Source: Pontiella agarivorans (GTDB lineage Bacteria > Verrucomicrobiota > Kiritimatiellia > Kiritimatiellales > Pontiellaceae). From it: a DNA stretch of 64,000 nt. The stretch is from the NCBI RefSeq assembly GCF_034531395.1, contig NZ_JARVCO010000007.1, positions 310,001 through 374,000 on the forward strand, in the 5' to 3' direction. The position numbers and the translations under genes are program-made. The notes beneath the pieces are model-generated. The model was not told the DNA's origin, made no database searches, and worked only from the letters and a program-made list of their open reading frames with translations. Shown one piece after another: positions 7,816 to 15,776 of the stretch. Numbering within the stretch: position 1 is the stretch's first letter; the number at the start of each line of letters is the position of its first letter.

Positions 7816-8000
7816 GCGGTTGCGGACCATCGCCGAGGGGAGCGCCATGCGGGGGAAACTCTCCTCATTCGCGAAGCGCGTTCCGCGCAACATCACGTCG
7901 AGCGCAAGACTGATAATCGTAAAAAAGAGGGATGCCCCTTCCCATCAACCTTTTAGCGCGGTATTGTATCCGCGGTTCAACAGCGGGACGAGGAGGGGTC

Positions 8001-9668
8001 ATGGTCCAATTTGAGGGCGTAGAGAGTCTGACGCGGATGTTTGTTTTAGTGAGCGGCGAGCTTGTCGGTATCATCGTTGGGGGGCTGCTGCTGGGTTTAA
8101 TGACACGCCTGATCCTGGGCCGCATCGGTTTGATTCCGGCCATGCGAGATCATCCGGAACGCCTTGCAGGCCTCCGTCGGCGGATCCGGTACGTGTTGAT
8201 TTCCGCCTGTCTGGGACTCTGCCTGGGTGCGCTGGGACTGAACGGGTATCTGGTCTTCCAGCGAACCGATCCCTACGTTCAGACCACGGAGTGGATTAAC
8301 GCGATCCCCCCCGACTTTTGGCTGAAGCTGGCCTTGAGTCTGGCCAAAGTCATCGGACTCGTGATTGCGGGTCGGATGGTGATCAATATGCTGGTACGCC
8401 TGTTAAACAGCCTTATGGGCAAAGCAAAGGCCTTTGAGGGAATCCGCGCCAACGATGAAAGCATCGAAGTGTTCTTCTCATCGCTGACCGCCATCCTTTC
8501 GAACTGCATAAAATTTCTCGTGGTCATCGCCGCGGCTGCACTGCTTTCGTTACCGGGACCAGTGGCGGCCTATTTGCTCGCCGCGCTGTATATCTATCTT
8601 TTTTTCACCATCGGCCTGCTGGTTGTCAAGGCCGTCGCGGCCATTGTCGACAGCCTCGATGCGTTGAGCAAGAAATACTCCAGCCCCGACAATTGGCTGC
8701 GCCACTACGAAAAGCTCAGTATCCTGATTCCTCTCTTCCGGCGCTGCCTTGAATATGTCATCTACGTCACGGTAGCAACGCTGGTTATCCTCCAGCTGAG
8801 TTTCATCGAGCGCTTCGCCGTCATAGGTCCACGGCTGACGAAAGTCATTGGCATTTTCTTCATCAGCCGGGTCATCATCGAGATCGGAAACATTTTGATC
8901 GATCGTTTCCAGCAGGAGCAGAAAAACCTGACCGAGAAAGAGCGAAAGCAACGCCTGACTCTCATCCCGCTGATGAAGAGCGCCATGAAGTATGTGGTTT
9001 ATTTTACCGCCATCCTGCTGGCCCTTAATGCGATGAACTTCAATCCAGCCCCGCTGCTGGCCGGGGCCGGAATCATCGGTATCGTTATTGGACTGGGCGC
9101 CCAGCCGCTGATCAACGATTTAGTTTCGGGCCTCTTCATCCTTTTCGAAAGCCTCTATCTGGTCGGTGACTATATCGAGACTGGGCAGGGCCGCGGGGTG
9201 GTTGAATCGATCGATATCCGCACCACCCGGCTGCGCGATCCCGGGGGGCAGCAGCATATCCTGCGCAACGGACAGATCGGCGACATCATCAACTTCTCCA
9301 AACGCTACACCTTTGCCGAGGTGGAGGTGGGCGTGGCCTACGATACCGATCTCGACCTCGCCTACACGGTGCTCGCGGAAGTCGGGCGGAAGATCCGTGA
9401 AGTGAATCAGGATGTGCTCGAGGATATGAAAGTGCTTGGCCTGCAAAACTTCGGGGAATCGGAGCTGCTGCTGCGGACGATCACTCGCGTCAAACCGGGT
9501 TGCCATCAGCAGGTCGCCCGTGATTTACGCAAACTGATCAAAGAAGCCTTCGACGGCCAAGGTATCGAAATCCCATACGCACGGCGCGTCCTCATTTTCA
9601 AAACGGAAACAGAAGAAAATCCGCTGAAGGACAACACGTCATCGACTTTGTCCGACAGAATGCGCTGA
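8001..9668 (+). CDS. Mechanosensitive ion channel, MscS family (large)
   Basis: This 555-residue channel protein belongs to the large MscS subfamily. Several hydrophobic segments lie in residues 10-340. The MscS pore helix and start of the beta domain are clear at about 345-395 (AGAGIIGIVIGLGAQPLIND, LVGDYIETG), followed by the beta and alpha-beta domains to about 530. Such channels open under membrane tension during hypo-osmotic shock. The frame is open upstream to 7932, but the ATG at 8001 has a strong AGGAGGGG site just before it. The C-terminal 25 residues are polar and probably disordered. The gene follows the lipoprotein gene on the same strand. Confidence 0.92.
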   Translation: MVQFEGVESLTRMFVLVSGELVGIIVGGLLLGLMTRLILGRIGLIPAMRDHPERLAGLRRRIRYVLISACLGLCLGALGLNGYLVFQRTDPYVQTTEWINAIPPDFWLKLALSLAKVIGLVIAGRMVINMLVRLLNSLMGKAKAFEGIRANDESIEVFFSSLTAILSNCIKFLVVIAAAALLSLPGPVAAYLLAALYIYLFFTIGLLVVKAVAAIVDSLDALSKKYSSPDNWLRHYEKLSILIPLFRRCLEYVIYVTVATLVILQLSFIERFAVIGPRLTKVIGIFFISRVIIEIGNILIDRFQQEQKNLTEKERKQRLTLIPLMKSAMKYVVYFTAILLALNAMNFNPAPLLAGAGIIGIVIGLGAQPLINDLVSGLFILFESLYLVGDYIETGQGRGVVESIDIRTTRLRDPGGQQHILRNGQIGDIINFSKRYTFAEVEVGVAYDTDLDLAYTVLAEVGRKIREVNQDVLEDMKVLGLQNFGESELLLRTITRVKPGCHQQVARDLRKLIKEAFDGQGIEIPYARRVLIFKTETEENPLKDNTSSTLSDRMR

Positions 9669-9753: not shown

Positions 9754-10101
9754 TTACAGTTCCGTTTTGTCGCCATCCACCTTTTTCAATTCCCAGATCA
9801 GCAGAAAGTTAATGACGGAGCGGATGGTGACGATGGCCGCTAGCAGGCCGAGGTTCTGCCACGACGGCGAGACTGCGCTTTTGAGGATATCGGCGCCGAT
9901 CAGAAATTCCAATCCCAGCGACAGCGAATGGCCGAGTCGAAGCCGTGTCGCCGAAAATTCCCGGAGACACTCTTTGGAAAAAAGGCAACGGCCGATATAG
10001 GGCACGAGCGCCCGCAGGCTGCCGATCAGAATAATAACGATGGAAACGATTTCCAGAAAGTACGCCGCATATTGGGCCAGAATGTTAACAAAATTATGCA
10101 T
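9754..10101 (-). CDS. DUF1622 family membrane protein
   Basis: This 115-residue inner-membrane protein has three hydrophobic segments (about residues 10-32, 58-75 and 85-102). It shows the family's features: LEIVSIVIILIGSLRALVP at the N-terminus and RLRLGHSLSLGLEFLIGADI in the middle. DUF1622 has no established function. The start has an AAGGAG site 7 nt upstream. It is convergent with the MscS gene and divergent from the antiporter gene. Confidence 0.85.
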   Translation of the reverse strand: MHNFVNILAQYAAYFLEIVSIVIILIGSLRALVPYIGRCLFSKECLREFSATRLRLGHSLSLGLEFLIGADILKSAVSPSWQNLGLLAAIVTIRSVINFLLIWELKKVDGDKTEL

Positions 10102-10358
10102 CGCTATACTCCTTATGTTTTTTCAACTTCCAAAGCAGTCTGAGCGTATCACTTCCCGGCACCGGACTGCAACGAGGCGTGCTATGTGAGGAATCATGCC
10201 GATGTTGCAGATCCATTACAGGGAGAATCCGGTTTTCAGCGTAAAACAAACAGAATAAGATAGATTCCCTTTTCGGGAATTCATACAACGCTTACACGCC
10301 GTTGGCGCTGTCCGAGGGGCATCGTCCAATAAAAATATCAGGAAATGAAAAGGAAACC

Positions 10359-12413
10359 ATGGATTCGGTGTATTTAATAGGATCGTTGATTCTGATCGGA
10401 GTGGTTCTGGCCGCCGTGTGGCTGGACCGCTGGAGTGTTCCGGTCATCCTGATTGCGCTTTGCGCCGGAATTCTCTGCGGCAGCGATGTGCTCAATCTCT
10501 GGTACTTCGACGACATCAGCCTGACGAAGCAGATTGCAAACCTGGCGTTGGTATTCATCCTCTTTCATGGCGGCTTTTCGACCCGTAAATCGGACTTCCA
10601 GGCGGTGGCACTTCCGGCGGGAGGGCTGGCTACATGGGGCGTTATTCTGACGGCGGCCACCACCTTCGGCGTCTTACGCTACCTGCTCGAATGGCCGTTT
10701 GAGCAGTCGATTCTGCTTTCCGTCATTATCTCCTCCACCGATGCGGCGGCTATTTTTTCGATTCTCCGCCGGCAATCACTTCCGAAAAAGCTCTCTTCAA
10801 TCACGGAAATTGAAAGCGGGGCCAACGACCCGATGGCCGTGCTGCTCACGGCCGCCGTTTTGGGCATGCTGACTTCGTCCGACACGGCTCTGCCGATGAC
10901 CGTGGTTCAATTCATCTGGAAATTTTCGGCGGCACCGCTGGTGGGGTGGGCGATCGGGCGCGCAGGTCTGTGGCTGTTTAATCGTCTGAGCCCTCAGGAC
11001 CGCGGGCATTATTATGTCCTTTCGCTGGGTATGATCCTGCTGACCTACGGGATTGCGGATGCGCTGCAGGCGAGCGGCATGCTCGCGGTTTTTGTTGCCG
11101 GCTATGTGATGGGGAACCGGCCCTTTGTTCATAAACAGGGGGTGACCAATTTTTCAGCGGCGCTCTCCACTGTGGCCAACATCGCCATGTTCGTTATGCT
11201 GGGGCTGCAGGTGTTTCCGCACCAATGGGCGAACATCTGGATGCAGGGCATTATTGTTTTTGCGGTGCTGACGTTTATCTCCCGTCCGCTGGCGGTTTTG
11301 ATCGGAACAATCGGCATGCGCCTGGGATGGAAGGATAAGACGTTTATCGCCTGGGCCGGGCTGCGCGGATCGGTTCCGATCGTGCTCGCCACCTATCCCG
11401 CCGCTGCGGGGCTCGCCGTCGGTCAGGATATTTTCAACATGGTTTTCTTTGCGGTCCTCCTGTCTATTGCGGTGCAGGGAAGCACACTGGGGGTGCTGGC
11501 AAAATGGTTGAAGCTGACCTGTCCGATGCGGCCCAAGCCTTTGTTCAATCTGGAACTCGTCACCATGAGCAAAAGCGATTTCGATTTGATTGTCGTGGAT
11601 CTTCCCGATCCGCAGGATGTGATCGGTAAAACCATTGCCGAACTTCAGCTTCCCGCCGGAGCGGTGATCACTTTGATTACGCGGGGAAAACTGCTGATCG
11701 CTCCCAAGGGATCGACTCATCTGCACGGTGGAGATCAGGTGACCGTACTGGCCCATGCCAGCGAAGAGGAGGCGATACGCTCGGTTCTGCTGGATGCGGT
11801 TGCGGAGGAAGCTTCAGTTGAAAAGGAAGAGCTCCCGGATCAGCATGCCGGTGATGACGGGGCATCCGCCGCAGAGGAGATGCTTAAGGCGGTATCCGGA
11901 GAATGTCTCATGGACATCAGGATTGAACGGGTCACAAACCGTCAGCAGGTTGATGTGCTGGCCTCGTTGGCTGCGGAAATCTGGAATGAGCATTTTCCGG
12001 AAATAATCGGTCAGGAACAGGTGGATTACATGCTGGAGCAGTTTCAAAGTATTGAGGCGCTCGAGTCCCAGATAGACTCCGGCTATGAATACTATCTGGC
12101 TCTGCACGGTGATGATCCGGTGGGATATCTGAGTCTGATCCCGAACTATGTCGATGGAAAACTGATGATCAGCAAGATATACGTTAAAGGTCCATGCCGC
12201 GGATCGGGTCTTGGCGGAATCTTTCTCGAATACAGTAAAGCTCGTGCGAAGGAATCCGGTGCAGATGCAATCTGTTTGACGGTCAACCGAAACAACACCC
12301 CGGCCGTTGAGTGGTACCGGCGGAAGGGTTTTGAGGTTACCGATGAGGTAAAGAAAGATATCGGCTCCGGATTCCTGATGGACGATTTCGTCATGGAATG
12401 CACGCTCGACTGA
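10359..12413 (+). CDS. CPA1-type cation/proton antiporter with RCK_C domain and C-terminal GNAT domain
   Basis: The start at 10359 has AAAAGGA 5 nt upstream and gives 684 residues. Residues about 1-385 are a multi-pass Na+/H+ or K+/H+ exchanger with the motifs ISSTDAAAIFSIL and ESGANDPMAV. Residues about 400-480 resemble an RCK_C (TrkA_C) regulatory domain (DVIGKTIAELQLPAGAVITL). After an acidic linker (about 485-517), residues 518-684 form a complete GNAT acetyltransferase domain with the acetyl-CoA loop GPCRGSGLGG and the C-terminal NRNNTPAVEWYRRKGFEV. An internal in-frame ATG at 11910 has GGAG upstream, so a separate GNAT protein could also be made. I know of no standard family with this exact build. 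Confidence 0.9.
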   Translation: MDSVYLIGSLILIGVVLAAVWLDRWSVPVILIALCAGILCGSDVLNLWYFDDISLTKQIANLALVFILFHGGFSTRKSDFQAVALPAGGLATWGVILTAATTFGVLRYLLEWPFEQSILLSVIISSTDAAAIFSILRRQSLPKKLSSITEIESGANDPMAVLLTAAVLGMLTSSDTALPMTVVQFIWKFSAAPLVGWAIGRAGLWLFNRLSPQDRGHYYVLSLGMILLTYGIADALQASGMLAVFVAGYVMGNRPFVHKQGVTNFSAALSTVANIAMFVMLGLQVFPHQWANIWMQGIIVFAVLTFISRPLAVLIGTIGMRLGWKDKTFIAWAGLRGSVPIVLATYPAAAGLAVGQDIFNMVFFAVLLSIAVQGSTLGVLAKWLKLTCPMRPKPLFNLELVTMSKSDFDLIVVDLPDPQDVIGKTIAELQLPAGAVITLITRGKLLIAPKGSTHLHGGDQVTVLAHASEEEAIRSVLLDAVAEEASVEKEELPDQHAGDDGASAAEEMLKAVSGECLMDIRIERVTNRQQVDVLASLAAEIWNEHFPEIIGQEQVDYMLEQFQSIEALESQIDSGYEYYLALHGDDPVGYLSLIPNYVDGKLMISKIYVKGPCRGSGLGGIFLEYSKARAKESGADAICLTVNRNNTPAVEWYRRKGFEVTDEVKKDIGSGFLMDDFVMECTLD

Positions 12414-12445: not shown

Positions 12446-13435
12446 TTACTGACGCCGGAAAATGCCCTCAAGAATGGCGGGTTTTCCGCCGGGGGTTGCG
12501 CCGTATTCGGTGACGGGCGTTTCCTGAACAAAGCCGGCCTCAGCCAGTTCCCTGATCAGTTGTTCTTCCGTCAGGAAGCAGGCCGGTTTTCCGGAGAGTC
12601 CGGTGAAGATAAACGGTTCGCCTTTGATCGGTTCGGCTTCCGGCGGAAGCGTACTTCGTGAAAAGGTGTAGATAAAAAGGGGCGCGCCGGATTTGGCGGA
12701 ACGGGCGGCTTCGCGGACGGCCGTGCGGAATTCTGCTGCTGATCGGGCCAGGTTCCAGACGCCGTGCGCGACGATAAAATCGAAGCCTTCATCTTCGACC
12801 GGCAACCGGTCCATCGGGGCGGGTTCAAGCTGCAGCTGTTCCGTCAGGCCGCCGTCGTCGGCCCGCCGCCGCGCCGCTGCGAGCATGGATTCTGAAAAGT
12901 CGAGCCCGAGCACGGTCCAGCCCGCCTTCGCCAGAGGAACGGCGTTGCAGCCCGCGCCGCAGCCGATGTCGAGGAGCCGGTTTCCGGTTTTGCATTGAAG
13001 TTCCTTTTCGGCAAAGCGCATCAATACGGAATTCGGCGGTGTGGAAGAAAGCCGGGCCACCATCTCCGGATCACTCCAGGGTGAATCAGCCCAGAATTCC
13101 AGGCGGTTGCCTTCGGGGTCTCGCAGAAAAAAGGCTTCCCCGCCCATGGTGCAGTTGCGGATCGGATCAACGGCAATATTCCGGTCTTTGAGTTGTTGCC
13201 AAACCGCATGCAGGTCGAAAACCTTGAAAGTGAGGGTGATTCCTTTTCCAAGGTTTGGAAGAATGCTGGTTCGGCTTGCGTCGGCCACGCTTAGACAGGC
13301 GGTCGGTGTCAGGAAAAATTCCACCATCCAGTCGGTGGAACCCTTTTCTTGCAGGCCGATTTGATGGCGATAGAACGCAACGGTTTCGGGCCAGTGTTTG
13401 CAGTAGAGAATGGTGTTGGCGGCTTCGAGCTTCAT
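12446..13435 (-). CDS. VOC-domain / SAM-dependent methyltransferase fusion protein
   Basis: This 329-residue protein has two parts. Residues 1-120 are a glyoxalase/VOC-like fold (ILYCKHWPETVAFYRHQIGL at the start, FFLRDPEGNRLEFWAD at the end). Residues about 135-329 are a class I methyltransferase with motif I LLDIGCGAGCNAVPLA and GFDFIVAHGVW. The substrate is unknown. The upstream part of the open frame overlaps the racemase-family gene, so I place the start at 13435, in the 19-bp gap after that gene's stop. It is the last gene of the minus-strand cluster that begins with the NO reductase. The tract near 13246-13260, encoding LPNLGKG, is a TTCCA palindrome. Confidence 0.85.
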   Translation of the reverse strand: MKLEAANTILYCKHWPETVAFYRHQIGLQEKGSTDWMVEFFLTPTACLSVADASRTSILPNLGKGITLTFKVFDLHAVWQQLKDRNIAVDPIRNCTMGGEAFFLRDPEGNRLEFWADSPWSDPEMVARLSSTPPNSVLMRFAEKELQCKTGNRLLDIGCGAGCNAVPLAKAGWTVLGLDFSESMLAAARRRADDGGLTEQLQLEPAPMDRLPVEDEGFDFIVAHGVWNLARSAAEFRTAVREAARSAKSGAPLFIYTFSRSTLPPEAEPIKGEPFIFTGLSGKPACFLTEEQLIRELAEAGFVQETPVTEYGATPGGKPAILEGIFRRQ

Positions 13436-13454
13436 GTTGTTCTGTCCGGCTGTT

Positions 13455-14207
13455 TTATTCGTTAGAAAATTCTTCCATGTAGCACACCGGACTGAAGGAT
13501 TCGTTGCGCGTTTCATTTTCCTGCAGCGCAAACTTCAGGATGGCTTCGGCATGAATCCGGGTGGTGTCATAGAGCGGCAGCGGGGAGTCGGATTCTCCGA
13601 TCAGCAGGCTCAGTTCGGTGCAGCCGAGAATAACCGCTTCGACGCCCTGTTTCTGTAAATCGGTAATCATGGTTTTCATGGCTTTTCGGGAAGTTTCTTC
13701 AGTGATCCCGTGCGACAGCTCTTCCCAGACGATGCGGTCGAGCTCGGTGCGTTGGCTGTTTTCGGGAATCAGCGTTTCAATGCCGGCTTCAGCGAACGTT
13801 TTCTGAAAGAAGCCGAATTCCATCGTGGGTTTGGTCCCGAGCAGGGCCACTTTGGTGCGTTGATCCTTTTTCAGTGCGGCGGCCGTTGCATCCATAATGG
13901 TCAGAATGGGCAGCGGGGATTTGTCGCGAATCCGGTCATAGGCATTATGCGGGGTATTGGCCAGAATGGAGGCAAATCCGGCACCGGCTTTTTCCAGCCG
14001 TTGGAGGGCGGTGAGCAGAATGGTTGCCACGCCGTCCCAGTCATTTTTTTCAAACCGGGTAACGAGTTCCTGCAGGTTCAGACTTTCGAGGGTGATTTCC
14101 GGAAAGTTCAGTCCGCCGGTCCGGCGGTTATATTCCCGGCAGAGAATCTGATAATAGTGAACCGTTGATTCCGGGCTCAGTCCGCCGATTAAGCCGATCC
14201 GTTTCAT
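13455..14207 (-). CDS. Aspartate/glutamate racemase family protein
   Basis: This 250-residue protein belongs to the Asp/Glu racemase superfamily, which interconverts amino-acid enantiomers without a cofactor, using two active-site thiols. It begins KRIGLIGGLSPESTVHYY, as family members do. The second catalytic Cys is present in ILGCTELSLL. The first, usually in a CNT motif, is replaced by Ala (ILANTPHNAYD), so it is either a one-Cys variant or has a different activity. It ends with about 20 residues beyond the usual fold. It lies between DUF488 and the VOC-methyltransferase on the same strand with short gaps, so it is probably co-transcribed with the nitrosative-stress genes. Confidence 0.87.
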   Translation of the reverse strand: MKRIGLIGGLSPESTVHYYQILCREYNRRTGGLNFPEITLESLNLQELVTRFEKNDWDGVATILLTALQRLEKAGAGFASILANTPHNAYDRIRDKSPLPILTIMDATAAALKKDQRTKVALLGTKPTMEFGFFQKTFAEAGIETLIPENSQRTELDRIVWEELSHGITEETSRKAMKTMITDLQKQGVEAVILGCTELSLLIGESDSPLPLYDTTRIHAEAILKFALQENETRNESFSPVCYMEEFSNE

Positions 14208-14230
14208 GAGGTCTCCTTTTCCGTTCAGGG

Positions 14231-14602
14231 TTAGGTGTGACAGATGTTCTTCAGCTCGTTCTGCAACACCTGGGCATGACCGTGTGCGGTATCTTTTGCC
14301 GCGTACAGCAGGGTGAGTGTTCGTTTCGGGCAGCGTTCAATCAGGTGCGTCAGCTGTTCGCTTTTTGTTTTCAGTTCATTTCGATAAAGCCGGCTGAATA
14401 CCGGCCATTTTTCCGGGTCATGGCTATACCATTTTCGCAGTTCCGGACTGGGGGAGAGCTCTTTGGCCCATTCATCGATTTCGGCATTTTCTTTTGCGAC
14501 TCCCCGCGGCCAGAGCCGGTCCACCAGCACCCGCCATCCGTCTGACGCGGCGGGCGGGTCATAGATCCGCTTAATCAGAATCCGTTCGGGCCGGGAGTTC
14601 AT
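14231..14602 (-). CDS. DUF488 (YeaO-type) protein
   Basis: This 123-residue soluble protein is typical of the short DUF488 family: IKRIYDPP near the start, then RVLVDRLWPRGVAKENAEID, WYSHDPEKWPVFSRLYRNEL and LLYAAKDTAHGHAQVL. The biochemical function is not known. DUF488 genes often lie beside iron- or NO-related genes, as here. The ATG overlaps the stop of the upstream RIC gene by 4 bp, so the two are probably translated together. Confidence 0.88.
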   Translation of the reverse strand: MNSRPERILIKRIYDPPAASDGWRVLVDRLWPRGVAKENAEIDEWAKELSPSPELRKWYSHDPEKWPVFSRLYRNELKTKSEQLTHLIERCPKRTLTLLYAAKDTAHGHAQVLQNELKNICHT

Positions 14603-15342
14603 GCGTTGGCCTGGGCCTCCTGTTTTACCGCCTTTGGAAAAAGGATATTGTTTTCCAGGTGAATGTGCTGATGGAGATCATCCTCCAGCGCGGCGAGCCC
14701 GTCGTACAATGCCGCAAAGGTCGGGCAGGCTCCATCCGGGAGGGTGTAGTCTCCGGTCAGTTTCCGCATGACTGCCAGTTCATTCCCTGCATCGTCGTGC
14801 TCGATTTCCATCTGGCGGATGGGGTTGGCCACACTGCCGCAATGGGACATGGGTTGTGCGGCATTGCCGTTGATAAAGGCTTCGGTGGCTTTAATCAGTG
14901 GAAACAGAATCTGTTCCTCTTTCATCAGGTGGGCCTCGAGCTCGGCGCGGACGGCGGTAAAGGCCCGGCTGAGTTTTCCGAGCATTTCACCATGGTGTTC
15001 TCCGTGGGCAATCTGTACTTTTTCCAGCAGTCCATCGAGGCGGGGCAGCTGTTCTTTTGTGAAGGCGTGATGGGTATCGACGATGTGATCGATCAGCCGG
15101 GAGAGCGCCACGTTGTTCCAGTCGGTACTGTCTGTTGTCGGCTGCTGCAGCAGCGTTTCATGCAGTGTTTTTTCCACGTCTGCCCAGGAACGCCCGGCGG
15201 ATTCCGCGGCTTCGAGCAGCGTTTTCTTTCCGCCGCAGCAATAGTCCAGCCCCAGTTGTTCCAGAGTCTGGCGAAGCTGCGGGTATTGGACGACCAGGTC
15301 GCCCACGGTGAGGTTCGGTTCAACGGATATTCGGTTCATCAT
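14599..15342 (-). CDS. Iron-sulfur cluster repair di-iron protein, RIC/ScdA/YtfE family
   Basis: This 247-residue protein repairs iron-sulfur centres damaged by NO or oxidants. The N-terminal ScdA domain (about residues 1-65) has the DYCCGG motif. The rest is a hemerythrin-like four-helix bundle with the His and Glu ligands expected for a di-iron centre (HIVDTHHAF, HGEHHGEM, HLMKEEQILFP, IEHDDAG, HIHLENNILFP). GGAG lies a few bases before the first two ATGs, and the family usually starts at either. It sits directly after the NsrR-type regulator and before DUF488, in the same transcriptional direction as the NO reductase, which fits a nitrosative-stress operon. Confidence 0.95.
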   Translation of the reverse strand: MMNRISVEPNLTVGDLVVQYPQLRQTLEQLGLDYCCGGKKTLLEAAESAGRSWADVEKTLHETLLQQPTTDSTDWNNVALSRLIDHIVDTHHAFTKEQLPRLDGLLEKVQIAHGEHHGEMLGKLSRAFTAVRAELEAHLMKEEQILFPLIKATEAFINGNAAQPMSHCGSVANPIRQMEIEHDDAGNELAVMRKLTGDYTLPDGACPTFAALYDGLAALEDDLHQHIHLENNILFPKAVKQEAQANA

Positions 15343-15368
15343 TATTCTCCGGGTTAACGGTATTCTGA

Positions 15369-15776
15369 TTATTTCCGCCCGATCAGATCGGCCAGCGTGG
15401 TTTCTTTCAGTGAATCCAGAAAGGCCTCGGTGGCTACCTGCAGGGCTTTCTTCAGTTTACAGCGGCCATCGAGTACGCAGGTGTTGGTATCCGCGTTGAA
15501 ACATTCAACCATGTCGAAGTTGGTTTCGAACTGCCGGACCACTGTGGCAAGATTAATGGAAGCCGGTTCGGCCCCCATCGAGATGCCGCCGCCGTACCGG
15601 CCGCGCCTGAGCGTGAGGTATCCCAGTTTGCCCAGCTTATTCACAATCTTGACCGTATGGCTGTAGGATATGTCATAGGCTTCGCTGATCTCCCGCGAGG
15701 AAACCTGCGGTTCTTTGCTGCGCGCGACATACATCAGGATTCTCAAAGCATAATCGGTATTCTGTTTCAGTTGCAT
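15369..15776 (-). CDS. nsrR: Rrf2-family regulator, NsrR type
   Basis: This 135-residue Rrf2-family repressor has a winged helix at residues 1-60 (TDYALRILMYVARS, SREISEAYDISYSHTVKIVN) and three conserved cysteines, Cys92, Cys100 and Cys106 (ECFNADTNTCVLDGRCKL), with the spacing used by NsrR and IscR to bind an Fe-S cluster. NsrR loses DNA binding when NO destroys the cluster. Its neighbours, the NO reductase and the RIC repair protein, are classic NsrR targets, so NsrR fits better than IscR. GGAG lies 8 nt before the start. The likely operators are upstream of the NO reductase at 18115-18190. Confidence 0.88.
   Translation of the reverse strand: MQLKQNTDYALRILMYVARSKEPQVSSREISEAYDISYSHTVKIVNKLGKLGYLTLRRGRYGGGISMGAEPASINLATVVRQFETNFDMVECFNADTNTCVLDGRCKLKKALQVATEAFLDSLKETTLADLIGRK

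Follow-up and report, generated by a model that had tools for sequence, protein, structure and literature searches.

What is an acetyltransferase doing at the end of a cation/proton antiporter, and are the two really one protein? The locus that raises these questions lies in a window of 64,000 nucleotides from Pontiella agarivorans NLcol2, a marine anaerobe according to the available part of its description (PMC10880615). The source assembly (G000) comprises 12 contigs and 4,436,865 bp.

One open reading frame from antiporter to acetyltransferase

Positions 10359-12413 of the forward strand form a single open frame of 684 amino acids without an internal stop. A sequence-only reading had placed a CPA1 exchanger, an RCK_C domain and a complete GNAT domain in this one frame, and Pfam recognised all three above cut-off, the last of them as Acetyltransf_1 at residues 541-658 (48.6 bits, cut-off 20.7). 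The features are as follows.

10350..10354, + strand: AAGGA, Shine-Dalgarno-like, 4 nt 5' of the ATG at 10359
10359..12413, + strand: fusion gene, K+/H+ antiporter, RCK_C, linker and GNAT (open reading frame and Pfam; same frame in the genome G025)
10407..11507, + strand: Na_H_Exchanger (PF00999), residues 17-383 (Pfam 194.4 bits, cut-off 26.2)
11595..11786, + strand: TrkA_C / RCK_C (PF02080), residues 413-476 (Pfam 46.4 bits, cut-off 27)
11814..11909, + strand: polar linker of 32 aa, residues 486-517 (dN/dS 0.72; predicted with low confidence when the whole chain was modelled)
11898..11901, + strand: GGAG, 8 nt 5' of the internal ATG at 11910 (identical in G025)
11910..12410, + strand: GNAT domain, PaiA-like, residues 518-684 (Pfam, alignment and model)
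12198..12215, + strand: acetyl-CoA loop RGSGLG, residues 614-619 (sequence and family alignment)
12315..12317, + strand: Tyr653, conserved in all 28 aligned GNAT family members

A model of the full-length protein reached a mean pLDDT of 65.3 and a pTM of 0.58, values that give no basis for domain contacts; its low confidence in the GNAT part reflects the fact that only two alignment rows cover that domain.

The junction in a sister species

Among 27 further genomes searched in the genus, one (G025, 4.1 Mb in a single contig) had the same 684-aa fusion at 96% identity. The two genes differ at 156 nucleotides over 684 codons, with zero indels and zero stops, and the whole-gene dS is 0.30. A frameshift or stop between the domains, the possibility against which the sequence-only reading had proposed checking the reads, does not occur at the junction, because the same frame runs through it in G025 despite these differences and without an indel. 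That assembly or sequencing removed a stop between two genes is, therefore, extremely improbable; such an artefact was rejected on the strength of the same open junction in an independent genome, and the mean coverage of 593x given for the NLcol2 assembly in the available part of PMC10880615 also speaks against it. On the evidence of the two sequences, the antiporter-GNAT join is real.

Selection has acted unevenly along the gene. Between G000 and G025, dN/dS was 0.011 in the transmembrane part, 0.125 in RCK_C, 0.72 in the linker and 0.083 in the GNAT, indicating that the antiporter and GNAT halves are both under purifying selection and that the linker, with 14 nucleotide differences in 32 codons, is near-neutral and nearly free to vary. 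Such a linker fits a flexible tether; near-neutral and free of indels, it could also resemble a short spacer between two cistrons. A third genome of the genus (G015) carries the antiporter alone (67% identity) and a stand-alone GNAT elsewhere. The proposal of a recent gene merger thus stood as regards the merger, since the antiporter stands alone in G015 and in every other genome read, the GNAT does so in many genomes, and the native GNAT start is kept inside the fusion. It can be called recent only in a relative sense, because the fusion is older than the split of two species now separated by a dS of 0.30.

The antiporter half

Residues 2-482 matched the NCBIfam potassium/proton antiporter model NF003716 (465.6 bits, cut-off 355) and also exceeded the cut-off of NF003715 (382.2 bits, cut-off 309), while the score against NF003714 (332.4 bits) fell short of the cut-off of 471. 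Residues T127, D128, E152, S153, N156, D157 and R336 are the same in all 17 aligned proteins. As the pairs T127-D128, E152-S153 and N156-D157 and the single R336, they align with the T-D, E-S, N-D and Arg positions of PaNhaP (4czb), which form its ion-binding site. The RCK_C (TrkA_C) domain behind the transmembrane part is the arrangement of the YcgO/CvrA/NhaP2 type (PRK05326). Pfam returned no CorC_HlyC match in the fusion protein at E<=1; the GNAT stands in its place. A CorC_HlyC domain, as in E. coli, is absent from many members and does not define the type, because most antiporter genes with complete tails that we read (107 of 158) stop no more than 40 aa from residue 485. Judging by these matches, the antiporter half is of the YcgO/CvrA kind and a predicted K+/H+ exchanger.

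The CpaA protein of Staphylococcus aureus also joins a CPA1 exchanger to an RCK domain, whose RCK_C binds c-di-AMP; it has the exchanger and RCK_C of the fusion but no GNAT. Two matches to DAC (diadenylate cyclase) exceeded the cut-off in G000, so that c-di-AMP could, by analogy with CpaA, act on the RCK_C of the fusion.

The GNAT half

At E<=1e-15, the GNAT family was found in 122 of the 387 genomes of the phylum, only two of which carry it joined to an antiporter. Stand-alone members occur in G015, G004 and many other genomes of the phylum. In G000, no member of the family was found besides the fused one; a second copy, standing alone (59% identity), is present in G025. Stand-alone GNATs of the genus (L063, L064 and L065) are 52-59% identical to the fused GNAT over the whole domain and share its start but, unlike it, lack a transporter part. 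A tree of 28 proteins placed the fused pair with the three stand-alone GNATs of the genus (support 82/80, below the starred level). The fused branch (0.53) was no longer than those of the stand-alone members of the genus (0.43-0.58) and thus gives no sign of decay or of a new function.

All the positions that are invariant in the 28 GNATs (including W25, G72, N126, N129 and Y136, domain numbering) are kept in the fusion. The acetyl-CoA loop of GNATs has the motif R/Q-x-x-G-x-G/A; the fused domain retains the RGSGLG loop and has both the fold and the loop of the GNAT superfamily. Tyr653 lies where PaiA/RimI-type GNATs usually have their catalytic Tyr. The model of the domain (pLDDT 96.3) had 885 PDB matches at E<=0.001, the nearest solved structures including 8osp (TMq 0.91) and PaiA of Bacillus subtilis (1tiq, TMq 0.88), a spermidine/spermine acetyltransferase that is a free protein. 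The fold is like that of PaiA, but identity in the structural alignment is 23%. The GNAT family profile ranked 1tiq first in the PDB (E 1e-19). Membership of PaiA by score was rejected (NCBIfam SpmdActasePaiA, 37.6 bits vs. a cut-off of 250). From these sequence features, the fused GNAT is probably a membrane-tethered acetyltransferase, with activity predicted.

The slot behind RCK_C in other genomes

We surveyed antiporters in the phylum of P. agarivorans (387 genomes, of which 79 matched the antiporter at E<=1e-60) and in the phyla of a Nevskiales genome (G416; 388 genomes, 93 with the antiporter at E<=1e-50), a Planctomycetota genome (G419; 382 genomes, 47 with the antiporter) and a Pontibacter (G417; 365 genomes, 49 with the antiporter), together with the best 80 of 591 confirmed antiporter loci on GTDB contigs. 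Matches from the three other phyla with an open frame of at least 620 aa were retrieved, as were the four longest non-fused ones from the own phylum; matches with frames below 620 aa outside the resulting 158 distinct genes were judged by frame length alone. Beyond the genes that stop near residue 485, 23 of the 158 carry 41-125 aa more and 28 carry more than 125 aa more, two of these 28 being the fusions (G000 and G025). No GNAT was detected by tblastn in the other 26 long tails, 11 of which had no Pfam scan and could therefore hide distant GNAT families; overall, none of the 156 non-fused antiporter genes with tails that we read had a recognised GNAT after RCK_C.

Among representatives scanned with Pfam, tails consisted of TrkA_N-TrkA_C (L073, L222, L223), TrkA_N (L135, L143) or CorC_HlyC (L100, L120, L197, L201, L204, L209; below cut-off in L199, L200, L203), and nothing was recognised in those of L214, L218, L224, L225, L226 and L231. 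The other antiporters either leave the slot after RCK_C empty or fill it differently, with CorC_HlyC or TrkA_N in the tails that Pfam could identify. The survey of homologues that had been proposed thus found the fusion in G025 alone besides G000, within the genomes sampled. Widespread fusion was rejected within this sample of four phyla and the best 80 of 591 GTDB loci. Plasmid records matched in 61 of 72,556 cases, none covering 80% of the query, and we found no description of an antiporter-GNAT fusion in the literature searched.

Known relatives show what this slot can hold. Planctomycetota and Nevskiales antiporters (L073, L221-L223) have an exchanger and RCK_C about 60% identical to those of the fusion and extra domains in the same slot, but these add a second complete RCK unit (TrkA_N-TrkA_C) rather than an enzyme. 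Escherichia coli YcgO (CvrA; PRK05326) likewise combines a CPA1 exchanger, RCK_C and a further cytoplasmic module; its cytoplasmic region comprises RCK and CorC domains, deletion of CorC leaves the antiporter constitutively active, and inhibition by unphosphorylated PtsN passes through CorC, according to the available part of PMC11808508. CorC acts there as a PtsN-binding brake, whereas the module of the Pontiella protein is a GNAT. From the role of CorC in YcgO, as far as that source describes it, the GNAT occupies a place from which a module can control transport. The slot already bears different modules by lineage, the one in E. coli deciding whether the antiporter is on or off (PMC11808508, available part), and a GNAT there would add a possible input of a new kind and provide a clean natural experiment to distinguish plug-in sensors from passengers. 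Were it only a passenger, the fusion would still be a dated merger with both halves and an inner start codon kept.

We also compared the 79 antiporter genomes of the phylum with 102 of the 122 GNAT genomes. Both families were present in 51 genomes; apart from the two fusions, only G112 and G070 had the two genes within 20 kb of each other, the distance in G070 being about 7 kb. The G112 gene (L044, 3-1430) joins a GNAT from the same wider family to a PfkB (ribokinase-like) kinase, and its end overlaps or abuts the start of a same-family antiporter gene. As evidence of linkage, this adjacency was rejected, being one case among 51 genomes.

The internal start codon

The in-frame ATG at 11910, with GGAG 8 nt upstream, is present in the window as the sequence-only reading had reported, and the stand-alone GNATs of the genus start at the position aligned with it. 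No strong internal start signal emerged, and the GGAG by itself is weak evidence: a Shine-Dalgarno match as good as this one precedes 55 of 364 internal ATGs in the long open reading frames of the window and 3 of 19 within the fusion frame, and the 28-nt run identical between G000 and G025 that spans the inner start is matched in length by 18 of 157 runs. The native family start is a better argument for an inner product than GGAG. Because the fusion gene has kept the native start along with a GGAG, the GNAT may also be produced separately, and a short product from ATG 11910 is possible on sequence grounds; it would be additional to the fusion, since nothing terminates the long frame.

A proposed lineage-specific merger and its alternatives

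The explanation we favour, with reasonable though far from full confidence, is a merger specific to the Pontiella lineage that tethered a probably active PaiA-like GNAT to a K+/H+ antiporter. In the genus, a PaiA-like GNAT gene that stood alone would have landed in frame behind a gene for a YcgO/CvrA-type antiporter, and translation would have continued across the junction from then on in both species. The transmembrane part of the resulting 684-aa membrane protein would exchange K+ (or Na+) for H+, RCK_C would gate the exchanger from the cytoplasm, and the intact acetyltransferase would sit on the cytoplasmic side on its flexible 32-aa linker. The GNAT would most likely retain its old job, the acetylation of a small amine, perhaps a polyamine, now at the membrane. 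We infer that the full-length chain is made, that both halves are active, that the substrate is of this kind and that coupling between the halves is weak or absent. Functional coupling is possible by analogy, because removing CorC from the slot unlocks the antiporter in E. coli (PMC11808508, available part). The sequence-only reading had suggested that acetylation or the acetyl-CoA level may be coupled to ion exchange; what supports this is the position of the GNAT, relatives having CorC_HlyC or TrkA_N in that slot.

That the GNAT serves as a regulatory module in the brake or sensor slot, as CorC does in YcgO by docking unphosphorylated PtsN, appears unlikely. K+/H+ antiport would then be gated either when acetyl-CoA or an amine binds or when RCK_C or the transmembrane part is acetylated. 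The idea draws on the CorC_HlyC and TrkA_N(-TrkA_C) modules that hold this slot elsewhere, the latter also in the relatives of about 60% identity, on the constitutive activity of YcgO without CorC (PMC11808508, available part), on retention of the fusion across a dS of 0.30 and on the GNAT-PfkB gene just upstream of a same-family antiporter in G112. Yet the linker is near-neutral, the GNAT branch is not accelerated and the catalytic motifs are intact, like those of an ordinary enzyme, and the G112 arrangement is a single case. We consider it quite unlikely, in particular, that the GNAT was recruited so that the level of acetyl-CoA or the acetylated amine directly gates cation/proton exchange. 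If true, a single protein would connect ion and pH homeostasis with central carbon metabolism, and the exchanger family would gain an input beside PtsN/CorC and TrkA_N. Rather improbable as well is that the GNAT is made mainly as a separate protein of about 19 kDa from ATG 11910, with the read-through fusion incidental: the family natively starts at this codon, which GGAG precedes in both species, but the equally good matches at other internal ATGs and the unremarkable identical run over the site weaken the case.

Gene neighbourhood

Upstream of the fusion gene lie genes for an MscS-type mechanosensitive channel (7932-9668, + strand) and a DUF1622 membrane protein (9754-10101, - strand). Downstream, a glyoxalase (VOC) and a SAM methyltransferase share one chain (12446-13531, - strand), as they do in G025 (L061, 7336-8388). 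The genes that follow (13455-15776, - strand) encode an Asp/Glu racemase, an inactive-type DUF488 protein, ScdA/RIC and Rrf2, in the same order in G025. The Rrf2 (15369-15776) and ScdA/RIC (14599-15342) genes are separate in the window, whereas in G025 an Rrf2-type regulator and ScdA/RIC (hemerythrin) occupy one 387-aa frame (L061, 5144-6307), whose junction resembles a frameshift close to where Rrf2 ends. In G025, a nitric-oxide-reductase-like gene, named by eye, adjoins Rrf2.
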